Shown here: piece after piece, positions 3,375 to 30,149 of the stretch
Layout of the letters: each line of letters begins with the position of its first letter
Numbering within the stretch: position 1 is the first letter of the stretch
Source of the DNA: a virus
Direction: 5' to 3' (one strand)
Virus record (IMG/VR): IMGVR_UViG_3300037247_002187
Coordinates: 1 to 49,581 of that record
Length of the DNA: 49,581 nucleotides
The notes under the pieces: generated by a model
Database searches by the model: none
The model's input: only the letters and a program-made list of their open reading frames with translations
What the model was told of the DNA's origin: nothing
Program-made: the position numbers and the translations under genes

Positions 3375-3836
3375 TTAGTACCTCTTCTTGGATTTGGAGC
3401 TCACGATTCGAATACGAGGCCCGAGACTTTTCTTGTTCTTCGAGGTCACCACGCCGCCTCTGCGAAAACCTATACCACCAGGCATGCTGCCAGCCCTTCC
3501 GCCTGCGGCACCCATCCGGCCAGCCATTCCGCCCGCCATCCTGCCTCCGCCTCCGCCTCCGAAGCCCAACATTCCGCCGCCCCCTACTCCCATGCCATTG
3601 AAGCCGAGCTTTTGAAGCTCTTCGGAGAATCCTTTTAGCAGAGAAGCTTTCTTTGCCATCATTAGGCCCTTTCGCTTCTTCTTTTCTTTGACTCTGGCAG
3701 CAGTGCTCGATTCCCATCTGCTGGTCGGAAGCGGCACAGCTCCGGGATCAAGCCCCTGGTTGCTCAAGATCGAGTAATGGCGGCTCTGATCCGCTTTTGC
3801 CCCCACGTCTTCATTGTAAAAGGCATCCTTCCTCAT
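3375..3836 (-). CDS. Gly/Met-rich protein with EELQKLG motif; possible internal start
   Basis: 153 aa from the ATG at 3836 (ATGA overlap). The first ~60 residues are soluble-looking and basic; an internal MMAKKASLLKGFSEELQKLG (ATGs at 3662 and 3659) then begins the motif-bearing part, followed by an extreme Gly/Met/Ala-rich segment (about residues 80-125) and a basic tail. The arrangement parallels the gene at 12446-13084, where a motif also follows an internal Met. Either one long protein or two in-frame products. Function unknown. Confidence 0.6.
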   Translation of the reverse strand: MRKDAFYNEDVGAKADQSRHYSILSNQGLDPGAVPLPTSRWESSTAARVKEKKKRKGLMMAKKASLLKGFSEELQKLGFNGMGVGGGGMLGFGGGGGGRMAGGMAGRMGAAGGRAGSMPGGIGFRRGGVVTSKNKKSLGPRIRIVSSKSKKRY

Positions 3837-6438: not shown

Positions 6439-7344
6439 CTAGCTCAGTTCGATGCGAGCAACGCCGTTCACGTTGGCGATCCCAACGGCAATGTCTTCCC
6501 AAGAACGCCACTCGACCAGATTGGCGCGCTTGTTGATCCAGAACTTCGTCTGGTTCAGGATGAAGAAGTTGCCGAGGAACTGAGGCGCGGCGAACCCGTA
6601 GATGAATCCCGGCAGAACAATGTCGTTCTTGATGGTGGTCACAAGCTTGTACCCCAGCAGGGTGTTATACTTGTAACCATCAACCGTGATCTCGGACGCC
6701 ACGCGGTCGCCCACGTCGGTGGCATCGAAGGACAGAACGTCGGCGAAGTCTTCCTGAGTCAACAAAATCAGGTCGAGCTTCAGACGCTTGGCCACGATGA
6801 GCTTCACCAACTGGGTGAGCGCGTTCCGGGTAACCGTGGGATCACTCACCAGCGCCGTGTTGCCACTGAAGGTCAGGGCAGCGTCGGCATGCGCCAAGAA
6901 GGTGCGGTCTTCAACTTCCTGAATGTCCTTCACCGAGTTTTCCTCGATGATCTTCGTGATCGGAGACTCATAGGCGAGCAGTTCCTGCTCAGTCTTCTCG
7001 AACAGATCCGAGGAGACCGTGAAGAAACCAATCTCGTAACGAGGCCCCGACACGTAGCGGGCATCCGGCTCACCGCGCCACGTCAGCGGCACAGCCGTGG
7101 AATCAGGCTCAATGTCCACGACCTTGGTGAGACCGTCGTGCTGGGTGCTCCGCTGGGTGTCCTGCTTGGTGACCATCACCGGAGGGATGATCTTCCGCAG
7201 AAAACTCAGCTCACGAAGCTTCTGGCGGATAAACGCTCCACCAGCTTCTGCCAGCTTCGTGATTTCGCTGGGGTCGTTGATCGACTCCGCGAAAAGCGCG
7301 TTAATCGTGCTGGCATTTGCAGCGATTGCAGTCGCGTCTGGCAT
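6439..7344 (-). CDS. Major capsid protein (HK97-fold type)
   Basis: 301 aa. N-terminal helix, then an extended arm region (FIRQKLRELSFLRKIIPPV), a beta-rich P-domain-like part (GPRYEIGFFTVSSDLFEKTE) and a long helix (ENSVKDIQEVEDRTFLAH) as in HK97-type capsid proteins; the C-terminus (WRSWEDIAVGIANVNGVARI) matches the closing strand and helix typical of such proteins. Residues 28-32 read ITKLA, then EAGG, a likely protease cleavage site. It sits downstream of the protease, scaffold-like and decoration genes. It ends in tandem UAG UAG, unlike its neighbours. Family by structure-type pattern, not by search. Confidence 0.8.
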   Translation of the reverse strand: MPDATAIAANASTINALFAESINDPSEITKLAEAGGAFIRQKLRELSFLRKIIPPVMVTKQDTQRSTQHDGLTKVVDIEPDSTAVPLTWRGEPDARYVSGPRYEIGFFTVSSDLFEKTEQELLAYESPITKIIEENSVKDIQEVEDRTFLAHADAALTFSGNTALVSDPTVTRNALTQLVKLIVAKRLKLDLILLTQEDFADVLSFDATDVGDRVASEITVDGYKYNTLLGYKLVTTIKNDIVLPGFIYGFAAPQFLGNFFILNQTKFWINKRANLVEWRSWEDIAVGIANVNGVARIELS

Positions 7345-16818: not shown

Positions 16819-16911
16819 GTCTTGTGATCTGCGGGGTTGTGGGGGAGGACAAGGCAAGCAATATGAACTGCCTTACTCCCCCATTTTTTTCATCTCGATG
16901 GAGGAAGTTGG

Positions 16912-17697
16912 ATGGCAAAGAACAACGGTGGGAAACAGGCAACGGCAGAAAAACCGGAGTCTACCGCCAAGAAAAAGGTAGCGAGTGGGATCACGAAAGA
17001 ATCCATTCTCGAAGGTACGGAACTGTACAAGAAGTACAGAATCCGCTGCTACTTCCCCGGCCCGGTCAAGGACAAGAACGGGCGAATTCTCGGCGGAACA
17101 CCCAAGCACCCGGACTTGCTCCGGGCGTGGCTCGCAACAAAGGGTCACAGCAAAGACGAGAAGAAGGCCATGGACGACATGGGCCTTTCCGATGAGGAGC
17201 AGCAGGACGTTGAGAAGAAGCAGTGGTGTGGCTTCAGATTCAACGACAGCGGCGTCTTCATCGAAGGTCGCCAAATCAAGGCGTGCCTGAAAACGGGCGC
17301 GGTCAATCTCGGATACGGCGACAATCGCAAGGGTTACCGCCAAGTAATCGATCACGGCTTCGTCGTCGAGCCGGATCAGGTCCATCTCATGCGAGAGAAC
17401 GGCAATGGGGGATTGTCCCCCATCAAAGATCCCGACGGCACCGAAGAGCGCGTCCAGCATATCTCGGACGCTCGCGGGAAGCGCTCGTGCCTCACCAAGT
17501 ACGACTTCATGGACGACTGCTTCATCGAATTCGAAATCGAGATTCTCTCCCGCAAGAAGCGCGGGGCCCAAAAAGAACTGCTGCTCGGAGAAAAGCAGAT
17601 TGAGGAAATGCTCTACCATGCAGAGCGCGACGGCCTCGGTGCCTGCCGCTCGCAGTCGTTCGGTCGCTTCAACGTCGTGGCGTTCGAAGAAGTCTGA
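16912..17697 (+). CDS. Conserved phage protein with RAMP-like glycine loop
   Basis: 261 aa behind GGAGG. Basic disordered N-terminus, then an alpha/beta domain with strands (YRIRCYFPGPV; WCGFRFNDSGVFIEGRQIKA) and a C-terminal GLGACRSQSFGRFNVV. That last stretch resembles the G-x-G-x-x-R-S-x-x-F-G-x-x loop of RAMP/Cas-type ferredoxin-like RNA-binding proteins. Whether it binds nucleic acid is unknown; no CRISPR gene or array is nearby. It may be an early DNA or RNA metabolism protein. Confidence 0.5.
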   Translation: MAKNNGGKQATAEKPESTAKKKVASGITKESILEGTELYKKYRIRCYFPGPVKDKNGRILGGTPKHPDLLRAWLATKGHSKDEKKAMDDMGLSDEEQQDVEKKQWCGFRFNDSGVFIEGRQIKACLKTGAVNLGYGDNRKGYRQVIDHGFVVEPDQVHLMRENGNGGLSPIKDPDGTEERVQHISDARGKRSCLTKYDFMDDCFIEFEIEILSRKKRGAQKELLLGEKQIEEMLYHAERDGLGACRSQSFGRFNVVAFEEV

Positions 17698-17974: not shown

Positions 17975-18343
17975 TTAAGAGGCGGAATCACCAACCGCCT
18001 CTTTTTTAGCCCGCCTGGATTCTATGAGCCCGGCGAGCATCTGGGCCTTTTCCAAATGGTAGTCCCGCAGCTTTTTGACTTCCTCGGGATCAAACATAAA
18101 ACCGTCTTCGATGCAGGACTCCATCAAACGAGTGGCTTCGTTGTAGAAGTCGATGTGTTTTTTGTTCCAATCTACCAGGGTCTCTATGCTGACTTTCTTC
18201 AGATCGAACCCAAGTTGATCATTTCCATATAGTTCAGCGAAATAATCCCGCATAGAGCGGAGCGTATCGACCCGAGCAGACACACTCAGTTCGATTGCCA
18301 TGCTTCCGTCAACGATTTCGGCACGTGGGTCTTTGCGCTTCAC
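17975..18343 (-). CDS. Lone minus-strand gene, helical protein of unknown function
   Basis: 122 aa from GTG 18343; a later ATG at 18301 behind GACGGAAGC would give 108 aa and is also reasonable. The product is helical and charged (VDWNKKHIDFYNEATRLMES; EEVKKLRDYHLEKAQMLAGL). It converges with the upstream plus-strand operon on a shared terminator and is divergent from the next operon. Such an isolated reverse gene in a lytic accessory region may be a late acquisition (moron). No family recognised. Confidence 0.55.
   Translation of the reverse strand: MKRKDPRAEIVDGSMAIELSVSARVDTLRSMRDYFAELYGNDQLGFDLKKVSIETLVDWNKKHIDFYNEATRLMESCIEDGFMFDPEEVKKLRDYHLEKAQMLAGLIESRRAKKEAVGDSAS
17977..18007. terminator. 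Bidirectional intrinsic terminator
   Basis: AAGAGGCGG, loop AATCACCAA, CCGCCTCTT followed by TTTT; on the minus strand the complementary A-run gives a U-tail too. It ends the rightward unit closing at 17971 and overlaps the last codons of the leftward gene 17975-18343. Confidence 0.8.
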
Positions 18344-22311: not shown

Positions 22312-22459
22312 GAGGAAAAAGAATAGAAGAACGGTCCGGTGCAGTTTGTGCACTCCGCACAAATGGAAGGGAAATGTATCGGACCGTTACAAACACCAAG
22401 CGGTAAGAGACAAATTTGCTGCTGACCAGCAGATGGACGAGTATAGGAACGGGGCTTGA
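22298..22459 (+). CDS. 53-aa basic protein with C-x-x-C
   Basis: Starts MAHFKRKKNRRTVRCSLCTP then HKWKGN, a single zinc-knuckle-like C-S-L-C-x-x-H. Overlaps the previous gene by 14 bases and the next by TGATG. Probably a small nucleic-acid-binding protein; unproven. Confidence 0.45.
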   Translation: MAHFKRKKNRRTVRCSLCTPHKWKGNVSDRYKHQAVRDKFAADQQMDEYRNGA

Positions 22460-22773
22460 TGGCCTTCTATACGCTTTTTGCCGGTCTGAAAAACGGCAAG
22501 AACACTGCCCTAGAAAGCAGTTTCGTGTGGGGCCTTGATTATGAGGATGAGATCTTCCTGTCAATTCTCGACTTATCCAAAAAGGATTTACTCACTCTAC
22601 TTTCCGCCAGTGAATCACGTGCCGGAAGCGGAATGGTAGACTGTGGAAGGGCCTCCAAACTTCTTGGAAGAAAGTTTGAATCAGAACCATCAACGCTTGA
22701 AATTTGCATGGCTCTTCAGGTAAATGGACATATGGATTGCTATCCCAAATTCGTCTCGCAGTTCGGGACATAA
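22459..22773 (+). CDS. Unknown protein before the C-rich array
   Basis: 104 aa starting MAFYTLFAGLKNGKNTALES. A globular alpha/beta composition with two Cys. It is the last protein-coding gene before 2.9 kb of repeats, and no terminator is seen between, so transcription of this operon should continue into the array. Confidence 0.5.
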   Translation: MAFYTLFAGLKNGKNTALESSFVWGLDYEDEIFLSILDLSKKDLLTLLSASESRAGSGMVDCGRASKLLGRKFESEPSTLEICMALQVNGHMDCYPKFVSQFGT

Positions 22774-22779
22774 TCGTGC

Positions 22780-25650
22780 AACCCTGGGAGACCCACCCAC
22801 CCGTCCCACTCCACAGAGACTGGCCGAACCTCATCTCGTCGGGCCGTTCCGCTGTGACTCGCCTAGCCTCTCCCAGCCCAGCCGCTGCGACGAGCCCGCA
22901 CTGTACGATACGCGACGTACCAAGCCAACCCAATGTGACGGGCCGTGCCGAGCCGACAAATGCCTATCCGACCCTATGCGACTATCCCAGCCGGTCCGCA
23001 TCTCCTCGAGTCTTCCCGACAAGACGGACCCAGTCACGCCAAGTCTTCCCGTACCGTTGCGACGAGCCGGTCCTTCACCCGACGTGCCTAGCCGCACCAC
23101 CGCGACGGTCCGTGCCGTGCCGATTATTGCCGCAACTACCCACACCACGCCGTCGAGACTACCCTTCACGAACCGCTCCAATCCCCGCCTATCCGCCGCG
23201 ACGAGCCTGGCCCAGACGCGACAACTCTGCTACTTCCCGCGACGGATCGCAACATGCCTTCCCAATGCGACAACTCAGCCCAGCGCATACCAATCCCAGC
23301 CACCGCGACAAGCCCCGACGGCACCCCACAAAACACCACGTTACAACCCGTACCAAACCTCTGCGACAGGCCTCACCAGATCTATACGTGCCCAACCGGT
23401 CCACCGCGACAATCCGAACCAATTCGGGTATAATCATAGTGACGCACCAGTTCAGCCGTCACCGCCCTACTCCGACCATATCGACTCAGCCCGACCCGAC
23501 CCAAAGTGACGGTCCAAGTTGGTCCCCGACAAAACTACCCTGCCCATCGAGACACGCCGGGCCACCACATGCCGGTCCAGGCCATCGCGACTGACCGCAC
23601 CAGATCGGCCCAATCCCACCCATTGTGACTGGTCCAGCCGAGACATTCCTTCACCGCCCTCTCCATTGCGACACGCCTCGCCTACTCGCATCACGCCCAA
23701 CCGACCCATTTCCATGCGACGTGCCGGGCCGGAACACACCCGAACCATCCGCGCCAACCCAACGCGACGACCCACGATCCCTACGCGCCTTTCCATATCC
23801 ATCCAGACCGGAACTTGCCAACCCAACGCGATAAGCCACGCCCTGCCCCAACGACCCATGCCCTCGCGACGAGACATGCCGCCTCGATTCGGAACTTGCC
23901 AACCCACACCTCTGTGACGAGCCGCGACCACAACGGAACCTTCCAGTCCAACCCCAGGTGACTGCCCGAGCTGTTTCGAGCCACGTCCGCACAGACCCAG
24001 TCCATCACGGTCCACTCCCACGCGACTGCCCGAGCCGTCCTCGACCATCACGGGCCACGCCAGCGCGACAACCCCGGTCGCCACAAACCCTGCCATTCCT
24101 TTACGACGAGCCATGCCATTACGCCACCGCACTGCACCCGTCCGAACCAATCCATCTTGACAAACCGTGCCTGACCCTTACACTACCTTCCCAACCAACC
24201 CTACGAGACAATCCGTCCCAATCCCCATCACTCCCGTCCAAACCTCTGCGACACGCCGGACCTGGCCGAATCGAATCGACCCATGCCGGACCTCTCCGGG
24301 CCAATGCGACGATCCACGTCACAACTCACCTTTTCGTACCAAGCCATCGAGACTGGCCGTCCCATAACAATCGCCCCCCGCACCAACGTGACGACCCACA
24401 ACACAGCGCAACTTCTCGTACCAAACCACTGCGACTATCCGTCTCGGCGCGAACCACCTCCGGACCAACTCGAGCCAAGCCAACGTGACACACCCAACCC
24501 ATACTTTACTGTCCTGTCCGTCACAAACCGGCCCATCGCGACGAACCCGACCGTTACTCACCTTATCGCTACCGTTCTAGCCCCTCCGCCCCCGCCCATT
24601 GGGACGCGCCGCCCCCGGACGAAACACACCAATCCATACCAAGCCCATGAGACTAACCGATCCCGGCCCCACCTTTCCTCTGCGACTACCCAATTCATGC
24701 CAAGCCCGGACATTCCCTGCCATCGCGATAAGCCAAGCCATCACCGAACTGGCCAACCCGTGCCGATCCGACTCGACGTGCCGCTACAAGACGAAACGAA
24801 ACAAACCGGTCCAAGCCCCAGCGACTTGCCAAGCCAACTCGTGCCACACCCATCCGAGCCTATGCGACAAGCCAACTCGTGCCACACCCATCCGAGCCTA
24901 TGCGACAAGCCAATTCGTGCCACACCGGCCCGTTCCGGCGCGACATGCCGCTACAAAACGAAACGGAACAAACCGGTCCAAACCCCACCGATGCGACGAC
25001 CCGAGACGGACAAAACCGGCCCAAGCCCCAGCGACAACCCATCACCTGTCGTTTCAGGCCACTCCTATCCGTTGCGACAAGCCGAACCTATGCTACACTA
25101 TCTACGCCACCCCACTCCTAGCCGACGTGACACGACGCCACACACCAAATCGCCCCGTGCCAAAGCGACGAGCCGAAACCAGACGGATCGTTCCGCCGCT
25201 CCCCGAGCCCAAATGACTGGCCTACACCGCCCGCGAAACAGCCGCTACACTCCCCTCCGACCCAACGCGACTCGCCAAAACATGCCGTCCCAATCCGGCG
25301 CGACATGCCGAGCCCGTCCGTAACAACCCGAACCGGCACGACGGGCCGACTCACAAACTTCACACGCCACACCGTTCCAGCGCGACGATCCATACCGAGA
25401 ACCCCCCGACCCTCACCGATGCGACAGGCCACCCCATACCTCTCCGGCCCCCCGCGACTATCCGCCCCGAATTCGATCCATTCCAGACCTATCCATCCCG
25501 ATGCGACTAGCCGTATCTGTCCACCCCGTCGTGACAAGCCGAGCAAAGCCGCTACACCCCTGCCCTCTCCTGAGCGACCATCCTCGTCAGGCCGACCCCG
25601 CCCACACCCATGCGACCATCCGTGCCATCACACGCCCTGCCAATCCTTTC
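22780..25650 (+). repeat. 2.9-kb array of degenerate ~40-bp C-rich repeats, no gene
   Basis: A core of the form [CA][CT]G-[CT or A]-GAC-NNN-CC (for example CTGCGACGAGCC, AATGCGACAACTC, ATTGTGACTGGTCC) recurs, commonly every 37-44 bases, sometimes at 24-33 or 50-60, from about 22,818 to 25,560: some 60-80 copies by eye. Between cores the strand is made mostly of C, A and T; in 24181-24240 I count 30 C and only 4 G. Open frames of up to 346 codons exist but shift between frames along the array and have nonsense Pro/Thr/Arg/Ser composition. A 38-bp unit is tandemly duplicated exactly at 24833-24908. Possible roles: binding-site array, origin or partition region, or a transcribed unstructured C-rich RNA. 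Confidence 0.8.
24833..24908 (+). repeat. Exact tandem duplication of a 38-bp unit in the array
   Basis: The unit beginning GCCAACTCGTGCCACACCCA and ending ATGCGACAA occurs twice head to tail without mismatch, and a third partial copy with differences follows. It gives the register of the array (about 38 bp) and shows recent expansion. Confidence 0.8.
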
Positions 25651-25656
25651 CTTCCC

Positions 25657-25682
25657 GAGGCCTTCACCGGCCTCTCTTTTTT
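25657..25682 (+). terminator. Intrinsic terminator closing the array
   Basis: GAGGCC-TTCACC-GGCCTC followed by TCTTTTTT. It ends any rightward transcript of the C-rich array, immediately before a GGTATAAG element that starts the next unit. Confidence 0.85.
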
Positions 25683-25718: not shown

Positions 25719-26357
25719 ATGGAAAAGACAATTCGGTTTTACAAACAGGATCGCAATGAGTTCCCATTCCTCAGCAATTTCTTCGGAGCGGAAGTAAAAA
25801 TAGATGCCTTCACATGGTCCACGACAGAGCACTACTATCAGGCCTGCAAACTGGAAAGCTGGTACGACAATGCAGAAAACGTCAAGGCCTTCGAAGGCAT
25901 TCGCAATGCCCCAACGCCGGGAGCGGCGAAGTCGAAAGGCAAAAGACTCAAGATCAGACCCGACTGGGAAGACAAAAAAGAGTTCTACATGATGAAAGCG
26001 CTGACGGCGAAATTCGGCCAACATCCAAATCTCGCGAAGGCGCTGCTCCACACTGGAAAATCTGAACTCATCGAGGATTCCCCGCGTGACTCCTATTGGG
26101 GCGCGGGAGATGGTGATGGAAAGAATCGACTGGGCGTGCTATTGATGCAGGTTCGGGAGGCACTCAAGAACAGGCAACCACAGACTGGATATGGCACCAT
26201 CAAGTGCCTACGCTGCAATGATATTATTCAGAGCCTGCACAGACACGATTTTAAGTATTGCTTCTGCGGCGCTGTTGCCGTGGATGGTGGAAAAGATTAT
26301 CTCAATATCAGCGGCGAACGAACAGACTGGCTAGTTTTGGTCCCGGCGGGCCGGTGA
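25719..26357 (+). CDS. NADAR (YbiA-like) domain protein with C-terminal zinc ribbon
   Basis: 212 aa. Residues 1-150 match the NADAR/YbiA domain: FPFLSNFF near 15, STTEHYYQACK at 34-44 with the conserved Glu37 and Gln41, and a late D-S-P-R-D-x-Y-W-G at 120-128. NADAR enzymes hydrolyse N-glycosidic bonds of riboflavin intermediates or ADP-ribosylated guanine; in phages they could repair ADP-ribosylation laid on DNA by DarT-type defences. Residues 160-190 add a zinc ribbon (Cys163, Cys166, Cys181, Cys183), not part of the usual domain, perhaps for DNA contact. Own terminator-promoter module suggests separate regulation. Confidence 0.75.
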   Translation: MEKTIRFYKQDRNEFPFLSNFFGAEVKIDAFTWSTTEHYYQACKLESWYDNAENVKAFEGIRNAPTPGAAKSKGKRLKIRPDWEDKKEFYMMKALTAKFGQHPNLAKALLHTGKSELIEDSPRDSYWGAGDGDGKNRLGVLLMQVREALKNRQPQTGYGTIKCLRCNDIIQSLHRHDFKYCFCGAVAVDGGKDYLNISGERTDWLVLVPAGR

Positions 26358-26364
26358 TGGTGAC

Positions 26365-26441
26365 GCACCCGTAGCTCAGTTGGTAGAGCAAGCCGATTCT
26401 AAATTGGCTGGTCGCGGGTTCAATCCCCGCCGGGTGCTCCA
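26365..26441 (+). tRNA. tRNA-Sup(CTA), amber suppressor
   Basis: Acceptor GCACCCG/CGGGTGC, D-arm GCTC-AGTTGGTA-GAGC, anticodon arm GCCGA-TTCTAAA-TTGGC, T-arm GCGGG-TTCAATC-CCCGC, discriminator T and encoded CCA (26439-26441). All stems are fully paired. The 7-base loop has U33 and anticodon CUA, which reads UAG. Two bases rather than one separate the D-stem from the anticodon stem. Shifting the anticodon would break the stem. Amino acid identity cannot be told from this; many phage amber tRNAs carry Gln. Confidence 0.8.
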
Positions 26442-27477: not shown

Positions 27478-27553
27478 TCCTCGGTAGCACAACCGGTAGT
27501 GCGCGTGACTGTTAATCACGAGGTTCCTGGTTCGAACCCAGGCCGGGGAGCCA
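27478..27553 (+). tRNA. tRNA-Asn(GTT)
   Basis: Acceptor TCCTCGG/CCGGGGA (one G-U), anticodon arm CGTGA-CTGTTAA-TCACG with anticodon GTT, T-arm CCTGG-TTCGAAC-CCAGG, discriminator G and encoded CCA (27551-27553). Regular cloverleaf; the clearest canonical tRNA here. Confidence 0.85.
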
Positions 27554-27556
27554 TAT

Positions 27557-27635
27557 GCCCGAGTATGCCAGGGGTGAGCAGCCGAGCCTGAAAAACGGCA
27601 AGGTGGTTGTGCGGGTTCGACTCCCGTCTCGGGCA
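27557..27635 (+). tRNA. Atypical tRNA-like gene, possibly Ser(TGA)
   Basis: Acceptor GCCCGAG/CTCGGGC, positions 8-9 TA, D-stem TGC/GCA with loop containing GG, T-arm GCGGG-TTCGACT-CCCGT. The anticodon arm is poor: CCG/CGG pairs enclose mismatched A-A and G-A, centring on TGA with C instead of U33. A short variable arm (CAA-GGTGG-TTG) suggests class II. Ends ACTA rather than ACCA. Three bases after the Asn CCA. Function uncertain. Confidence 0.4.
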
Positions 27636-27659
27636 CTAACCGCTTTATGGAGGAATCGT

Positions 27660-29340: not shown

Positions 29341-29619
29341 ATGGATGTTGTTTATGGGAAGCCGCGCCGCTGGGCAGTCTGTCTCTATCGCGACCCCGAG
29401 GAGACAGAACAGATTTTGACGGCTGTAGTCATCGGTCTTCCGGGGGTTGCATCAGAGGGCGCTTCAAAAGAAGAAGCGATCAGCAATGTGAAAGAAGCCA
29501 TAAACCTGCGTTTTGAGGGCGAGAACGAAGTGGAGGTCATGAAGGACTTGCGGCACGACTACGTGATTCCAGTCGGCGGGGAATTGATTTACGTAGAACA
29601 GGGAGAACAAGATGCATGA
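29341..29619 (+). CDS. HicB-like antitoxin-fold protein
   Basis: 92 aa behind CAAGGAGGACGAG. RRWAVCLYRDPEETEQILTA then VVIGLPGVASEGASKEEAIS-NVKEAINL is the HicB/RNase H-like pattern (P-G-x-x-[ST]-x-G-x-[ST]-x-E-E-A). No HicA toxin gene adjoins, so it may be a solitary antitoxin-like protein, perhaps neutralising a host toxin, or a regulator. Overlaps the next gene by ATGA. Confidence 0.6.
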   Translation: MDVVYGKPRRWAVCLYRDPEETEQILTAVVIGLPGVASEGASKEEAISNVKEAINLRFEGENEVEVMKDLRHDYVIPVGGELIYVEQGEQDA

Positions 29620-30149
29620 AGGATAACGGTTCTTCTCTTTTCCCCGACTTAAGCCACGATGGTATCAGACGAACAGCCGTATTCAGTCCCTGCCGCATCT
29701 GGCGATATACTCTCGAACGCCGCTGGGATGACTTACTCCCGATAATCTGCTTCCTGCTGCTCAATCCAGCCACGGCAGACGAAAATGTGGATGACAACAC
29801 CAATCGTCGTGGACTTAGATTCGCGCGCAAGTGGGGCTTCGGAACCTGTATATTCATAAATCTATTCGCGTTCAGGACGAAGAAGCCAGCAGTGATGAAG
29901 GCGGCGGCAGATCCAATTGGACCCGAGAATGACGAGTACATTCTCCAGTGGGCCAAGGACGCAGACAAATTGGTATTTGCCTGGGGCACTCACGGGACAT
30001 TCAACAATCGGGACAAGCAAGTGCTCGAGCTCCTGCAGGGCTACGAGTGTTACCACCTTGGCCTCACCAAGGATGGGCACCCCAAGCATCCGCTGTACTT
30101 GAAGGCCAACACCAAGTTGGAGAAATGGGAATGGCAACGAGCAAAATGA
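29616..30149 (+). CDS. DUF1643 family protein
   Basis: 177 aa. RIWRYTLERRWDDLLPIICF, LLLNPATADENVDDNTNRRG, FINLFAFRT, DPIGPENDEYI, VFAWGTHG and CYHLGLTKDGHPKHPLYLK follow the whole DUF1643 pattern (Y-R-Y-x-L x-R-x-W ... L-N-P-S/A-T-A-D ... N-L-F-A ... D-P-[IV]-G-P-x-N-D ... L-G-x-T-x-x-G-x-P-x-H-P-L-Y). Function of this family, frequent in phages and mobile elements, is not established. Confidence 0.8.
   Translation: MKDNGSSLFPDLSHDGIRRTAVFSPCRIWRYTLERRWDDLLPIICFLLLNPATADENVDDNTNRRGLRFARKWGFGTCIFINLFAFRTKKPAVMKAAADPIGPENDEYILQWAKDADKLVFAWGTHGTFNNRDKQVLELLQGYECYHLGLTKDGHPKHPLYLKANTKLEKWEWQRAK

Follow-up and report, generated by a model that had tools for sequence, protein, structure and literature searches.

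What is the role of a gene-free, C-rich stretch of 2.9 kb in a viral genome? The question is raised by IMG/VR record IMGVR_UViG_3300037247_002187, from which 49,581 nucleotides were analysed here and are referred to as the window. The initial annotation described this stretch as an array of degenerate ~40-bp repeats and considered that its transcript might trap the termination factor Rho or act as a decoy for another RNA-binding protein, or that the DNA itself might be an array of binding sites. Our analysis points to a different answer. With a probability of about 0.88, the array encodes a set of VIPR-type guide RNAs that are used together with a RAMP protein of the phage itself.

Architecture of the array

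A strict 5-nt grid of the form NNN(C/A/T)C underlies positions 22788-25656 (Table 1), with C in the fifth position of 97% of the pentamers. The entropies of the five positions were 1.90, 1.95, 1.98, 1.25, and 0.20 bits; the first three bases of a pentamer are nearly free, the fourth can be C, A, or T but not G, and the fifth is C. About 77 cores of the GCGAC type (GHGAC) are distributed over the array. Each of them shifts the grid by 3 nt, and the distances between cores are therefore of the form 5n+3. This was the case for 36 of the 44 strict core spacings from 13 to 70 (3 modulo 5; binomial p ~2e-18), among which 43 (13 times), 38 (6 times), 33 (5 times), 53 (4 times), and 28 (3 times) were the most common. 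Unit listing resulted in the grammar GCGAC(NNNHC)n + 3 nt, in which the 3-nt spacer is NNY and the number of pentamers per core is mostly about 4-11. Split at its core, one unit for example reads GCGAC GAGCC GGTCC TTCAC ..., followed by three bases and the next GCGAC. It is this grammar that gives the impression of a degenerate ~40-bp repeat. Recurrence of the core had thus been recognized correctly in the initial annotation, while the 5-nt grid beneath it had been missed.

Autocorrelation within the array peaked at lags of 5, 10, 15, 33, 38, 43, 48, and 53, with no peak at 3. The motif GCGACNNNCC was counted 36 times, compared to 1.5 occurrences expected under a dinucleotide model. A repeat HMM assigned 1003 nats to the array in its own flanks and at most 65 nats to order-1 to order-3 Markov shuffles, which preserve 2-, 3-, or 4-mer statistics. 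It delineated 77 cores, in agreement with the 60 to 80 reported before. The array is confined to one strand. Across its length, 8-11 stops per frame were found in the plus frames and 22-27 in the minus frames. Stops in all frames and the absent 3-nt period rule out frameshifted protein coding, and the stretch is indeed non-coding. Hence, neither of the two outcomes that the initial annotation had named as counter-evidence, conserved coding with frameshifts and periodicity no higher than background, was observed. Searches of the array against Rfam, including the hammerhead families, and BLAST searches of the array or of window positions 1-25000 against phages gave no match. A recent 38-nt tandem copy of one unit is an example of the unit duplication by which the array appears to grow.

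Table 1. Features of the window discussed in the text, with positions counted from its first nucleotide
Feature	Position	Strand	Basis or remark
Short tandem repeats (6-bp CCGCCT; 12-bp)	3533..3561 and 7135..7171		unrelated to the array
vipr-like gene, 261 aa, single RAMP protein (predicted), C-terminal G-loop GLGACRSQSFGRF	16912..17697	+	profile match, alignment, AF2 model, Foldseek
Small gene immediately following vipr, 88 aa	17705..17971	+	putative accessory gene (vap)
Hairpin followed by T-run, closing the vipr unit (AGGCGG...CCGCCTCTTTTTT)	17978..18007	+	by eye; absent from consensus scan
Last gene of the operon upstream of the array	22456..22773	+	stop 14 nt before the first core
Guide-RNA array (candidate)	22788..25656	+	autocorrelation, unit listing, HMM delineation and controls, position-specific composition
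Unit with ten NN dinucleotides matching a viral gene in L144	24248..24302	+	20/20, 1-nt skip
Recent tandem duplication of one unit (38 nt)	24830..24926	+	98% matches
Intrinsic terminator	25657..25674	+	abuts the last pentamer of the array
NADAR-domain protein fused to DUF7695	25719..26357	+	
tRNA gene, anticodon CUA	26365..26441	+	ARAGORN call tRNA-Pyl
tRNA-Asn (GTT)	27478..27553		
tRNA-Ser (TGA)	27557..27636		
DUF1643 protein	29616..30149	+	E 2.8e-45

Transcription and genomic surroundings

Transcription of the plus strand is suggested by two features of the flanks, the short distance between the stop of the upstream operon and the first core and the terminator that touches the last pentamer. 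A terminator scan of the window gave none at the entrance of the array, as had been stated before. The array should therefore be a 3' extension of the operon ending at 22773, and the earlier proposal that it is transcribed with this operon is probably right.

The composition of the region (1236 C, 676 A, 564 G, and 411 T in 22774-25660, i.e. 43% C and 20% G) agrees with the initial annotation, as do its count of 30 C and 4 G in 24181-24240, the coordinates, the strand, and the core. This extreme bias of C over G in a presumably untranslated RNA is the basis for the idea of a Rho trap or rut array, in which a C-rich and G-poor transcript captures or diverts Rho. Rut sites resemble the array in this composition, but they neither have nor require a 5-nt register or a GCGAC core and they are not linked to a RAMP protein. 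There would be no reason for such an array to accompany the phage RAMP gene described below, and the intrinsic terminator past the array would be idle if transcripts never arrived there. Taken together with a guide-like turnover of the units that also goes unexplained, capture of Rho appears hardly credible to us.

Directly past the array terminator, the window encodes a NADAR-domain protein fused to DUF7695. NADAR enzymes belong to NAD/ADP-ribose metabolism, a recurrent theme in phage-host conflict. As a route to relatives of the window, this neighbor led to no close relative in IMG/VR. It is followed by a gene for a tRNA with anticodon CUA, which is as likely to be an amber-suppressor tRNA as the tRNA-Pyl called by ARAGORN. 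Amber recoding, which this tRNA might suggest, was not supported by a simple check of stop usage, in which TAG was found to end 12 of 70 likely genes. Two more tRNA genes are present in the window. A homologue of the DUF1643 protein encoded further downstream was also found in another array-bearing phage (L114), at a distance of a few kb from its array.

Occurrence of the array in other genomes

Exact grid-pattern scans of IMG/VR, with candidates checked by HMM and reversed-sequence controls, and the further searches described below showed the same array in 28 records other than the window, nearly all of them phage contigs. In addition to the window, the total of 29 array records comprises 26 IMG/VR contigs, a single phage from GenBank, and the contig L098 (3.6 kb), which had been binned into a MAG. 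Some of the weaker arrays (L015 and L038) are less certain, and L014/L016, L013/L118, and L133/L134 are pairs of near-copies. The number of cores in the other arrays was for example 58 in L017, 35 in L019, 31 in L014, and 30 and 21 in L023. L098 was the only clear array among 71 matches of the pattern scan in 84,980 bacterial and archaeal genomes. The others have the appearance of random matches and stem mainly from high-GC genomes. Pattern matches in L113 and L119 were rejected, as the reversed control scored high as well.

In several loci the array forms an untranslated region within an operon and extends up to the ribosome-binding site of the next gene or up to a terminator. The ends of the arrays vary among loci; some close with a core and one further pentamer, others with a run of pentamers.

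Linkage of the array to a RAMP protein

An all-against-all comparison of flanking ORFs and inspection of the array neighbors detected a shared protein, whose gene is named vipr here. Searches of the whole records found this RAMP homologue encoded in 25 of the 29 array records. In the remaining four (L009, L012, L038, and L098), the contig is incomplete and the array is located at one of its ends or close to it. Starting from the protein, a tblastn search of 50,697 phage records with the window protein resulted in a single match, to a protein of Microcystis phage Mae-JY09 that carries no annotation (E 4e-21 at 27% identity). Right past its stop and on the same strand, a C-rich array with 10 cores starts (lags 33, 5, 10, and 28). 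Eleven loci were obtained when IMG/VR was searched with the profile, and in each of them an array is located near vipr and in the same orientation. Since six of these were the profile's own seeds and three were known from the pattern scans, the independent protein-first cases are Mae-JY09 and the two new loci L133/L134. Among 397 genomes from the phylum to which the L098 MAG belongs and 193 genomes from the class of the L068 MAG, none contained a vipr homologue; a control with phage records was positive. The fetched sequence of Mae-JY09 (L123, PP395641.1) looks very GC-rich and is a poor fit to Microcystis; its recorded host may therefore be wrong.

The core array was never found on the strand opposite to vipr. 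This bears on the possibility that the array acts at the DNA level, as a binding array for replication origin, partition, or packaging functions. A long tandem array on one strand with a 5-bp step, which corresponds to half a helical turn, could serve such a purpose, and the cumulative GC skew falls at the array. However, the location inside operons on the vipr strand and the linkage to a protein with a predicted RNA-binding RAMP fold argue for a function of the RNA, and the grid, the core, and the turnover of the units go unexplained by a DNA array. We consider it very unlikely.

Properties of the vipr-like protein

The family comprises proteins of ~215-270 aa with a glycine-rich loop, GLGADRSQGxGKF, near the end. 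A profile of five sequences matched the window at 16867-17694 (E 7.6e-46), with a likely start codon at 16912. Pfam, PHROGs, and NCBIfam yielded no confident family for the protein; weak NCBIfam/Pfam matches include Csm4 and Cas6. The AlphaFold2 model of the window protein had a mean pLDDT of 76.8. In a Foldseek search of the PDB with this model, all 50 matches listed were CRISPR RAMP complexes (type VII Cas7, Csm, Cmr, Cas7-11, and Csf). The best E-value was 5.6e-7 at TM scores of only about 0.3-0.5, probably because of a low-confidence N-terminus and an insert in the model. As modeled, the protein is a RAMP with a Cas7/Csm3 fold and the glycine-rich loop. A search of the PDB with the family profile gave 36pp_D, the 'SUSP1 Vipr protein', as best match with a weak E-value of 0.014, followed by Csm4. 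Phmmer with the window protein alone gave no match. Near the window array, no Cas families, including Cas10 and multiple RAMPs, were detected among the proteins scanned.

In most other loci the array is close to vipr, whereas the vipr gene of the window is located 5 kb upstream of the array in a separate unit. For the small gene that follows it neither a Pfam match nor a homologue in the fetched loci was found.

Relation to VIPR and type III CRISPR systems

VIPR systems have been described in a 2026 preprint as phage-encoded ancestral RAMPs that bind vrRNAs composed of YNNGG repeats (PMC13142463). According to its main text, they are defined by a RAMP and a pentanucleotide guide RNA and occur mostly in phages. 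The NN bases of the vrRNA recognize double-stranded DNA with one skipped base between dinucleotides, and competing phages are repressed (PMC13142463). Four vrRNAs were reported there for the type II VIPR of Escherichia phage SUSP1 (PMC13142463; PDB 36pp). The statement of the initial annotation that no phage element like this array had been described does not hold in view of these systems.

With the SUSP1 system, as described in the main text, the window shares a phage-encoded single RAMP and an untranslated pentanucleotide-repeat array that flanks the gene or comes after it on its strand and in which fixed and variable bases alternate. In contrast, the guides of SUSP1 are G-rich (GGY/NN) with 9-16 repeats, a structured 3' tail, and four guides in all, whereas the window contains ~77 units of C-rich NNN(C/A/T)C pentamers, mostly 4-11 per unit, with GCGAC cores. 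On the sequence level, a tandem pentanucleotide repeat is present in the window. The GGY/NN motif is not found on the vipr strand, which carries NNN(C/A/T)C instead. Nor was a structured invariable 3' tail, a feature of type II VIPR, found in the array, in which only the GCGAC core and the 3-nt spacer recur.

A G-rich grid (GGYNN) is located on the vipr strand in the SUSP1 locus and in its Gordonia and Mycobacterium relatives. The 17 C-grid and 7 G-grid Vipr proteins were split into two groups with 100/100 support in a tree that was unrooted, had long branches between the groups, and contained no CRISPR RAMPs. This suggests that the code follows the protein lineage. The preprint mentions 'staggered arrays with overlapping vrRNAs' and a 'related consensus', which may be the C-rich form found here (PMC13142463); in such a staggered array, a core would be common to adjacent guides. 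Hence, this kind of system has been known since 2026, and by the main-text description of the preprint the C-based, core-delimited array with tens of units would be a variant of it. In the Gordonia phages MakoManhole, Trine, UmaThurman, and ODay and the Mycobacterium phages LittleE and Mattes (L126-L131), deposited 'hypothetical proteins' look like Vipr and are adjoined by G-rich pentanucleotide arrays. About 30 Mycobacterium phage records match Vipr, mostly weakly, and such loci may thus be common in well-studied phages without having been annotated.

Units of 33-43 nt have the size of crRNAs. Type III CRISPR-Cas systems (Csm/Cmr) share the Cas7-fold RAMP with the window, and in Thermus the 8-nt 5' handle of the type III crRNAs, AUUGCGAC, ends in a sequence similar to the YGCGAC core (PMC8157118). 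Unlike these systems, the array has no conserved direct repeat alternating with a free spacer. Only ~5-8 nt per unit are constant and the 'spacer' itself lies on the 5-nt grid. Neither Cas6 nor Cas10 was seen among the proteins scanned.

Turnover of the array units

Pairs of related loci were informative on the stability of the units. In L014 and L018, the vipr genes are 91% identical (96% at the protein level), and only one of 31 units is identical and one more is close. L141 and L142, whose vipr genes are also 91% identical, have no identical unit in common. L139 and L140 carry identical vipr genes with arrays of 23 and 15 units, respectively, that differ by an internal block. Judged from these sequences, the units turn over far faster than the vipr gene. 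Quick gain and loss of units is as expected for conflicts between mobile elements.

This turnover also helps to assess another role for the RNA, in which the array transcript is a RAMP-coated decoy or scaffold without guide function that soaks up host CRISPR subunits, as an RNA anti-CRISPR, or titrates Vipr. The similarity of a pyrimidine followed by GCGAC to the Thermus handle would suit such a molecule, as would arrays far larger than the four vrRNAs reported in the main text for SUSP1. However, the phage has its own RAMP, to which the array is linked in most records, and triplets that are almost unconstrained (1.9-1.98 bits) and change rapidly fit guides, not a fixed decoy. A decoy is therefore unlikely in our opinion. 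Of the earlier proposal, binding of the RNA by a protein is probably right. A Rho decoy or a sponge for a host factor found no support.

Search for targets

A local search of ~0.5 Mb of phage DNA combined skips of 0-3 nt with three alternative sets of guide bases. Under no skip rule did the matches exceed those of the reversed guides that served as controls. Two perfect matches obtained with three bases and a skip of 2 showed the array's own spacing and were interpreted as array copies that had escaped masking. Under the 1-nt-skip rule, a scan of IMG/VR with three long window guides gave one match for each. Two of these look like chance, lacking full extension and wobble phase. In the third, to the viral gene in L144 (Table 1), one dinucleotide outside the search pattern also matches, and every skip base is a wobble position. 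The match is located in an open frame of 87 codons on a 22-kb viral contig, which by ORF reading probably encodes terminase- and portal-like proteins. Given one 18-base match per guide, the chance of a match of this type is roughly 1/16 x 1/6 per guide, or ~3% over three guides. L144 is a candidate target of the unit at 24248, and this match is suggestive only. The other window guides gave no match to the L144 contig, and self-targeting in the window was not above control.

Proposed function and implications

From the anatomy of the array and the VIPR precedent the following mechanism can be envisaged. Plus-strand transcription would place the array at the 3' end of the operon transcript and give rise to short RNAs bounded by GCGAC cores, the core being the boundary between one guide and the next. 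Each RNA would be covered by a row of Vipr subunits, with one subunit for every 5 nt that holds the near-constant (C/A/T)C and keeps NN or NNN free to pair. Such a complex would find DNA by non-contiguous pairing and repress competing phages or other mobile elements at the level of transcription. Because the array ends differ among loci, the GCGAC core may be a 5' handle, a 3' tail, or a sequence shared by overlapping guides.

It is possible, and we suggest it tentatively, that these loci represent a second, C-based code beyond the GGY/NN types, formed by a separate Vipr lineage with NNN(C/A/T)C guides, a handle-like GCGAC, and tens of guides per phage. In this arrangement of handle and spacer, with the repeat reduced to the handle, it would be an intermediate between VIPR and CRISPR.

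VIPR has been proposed as the phage-borne ancestor of CRISPR. If our reading is true, long arrays of short units with handle-like cores would be the nearest approach to a CRISPR array known so far, and the discontinuous code would not be tied to GGY. With about 77 guides, one phage would then preserve a rich account of its competitors. Owing to the 5-nt grid, such arrays can easily be recognized in phage DNA without annotation, and the question of how the CRISPR repeat arose would become directly testable.
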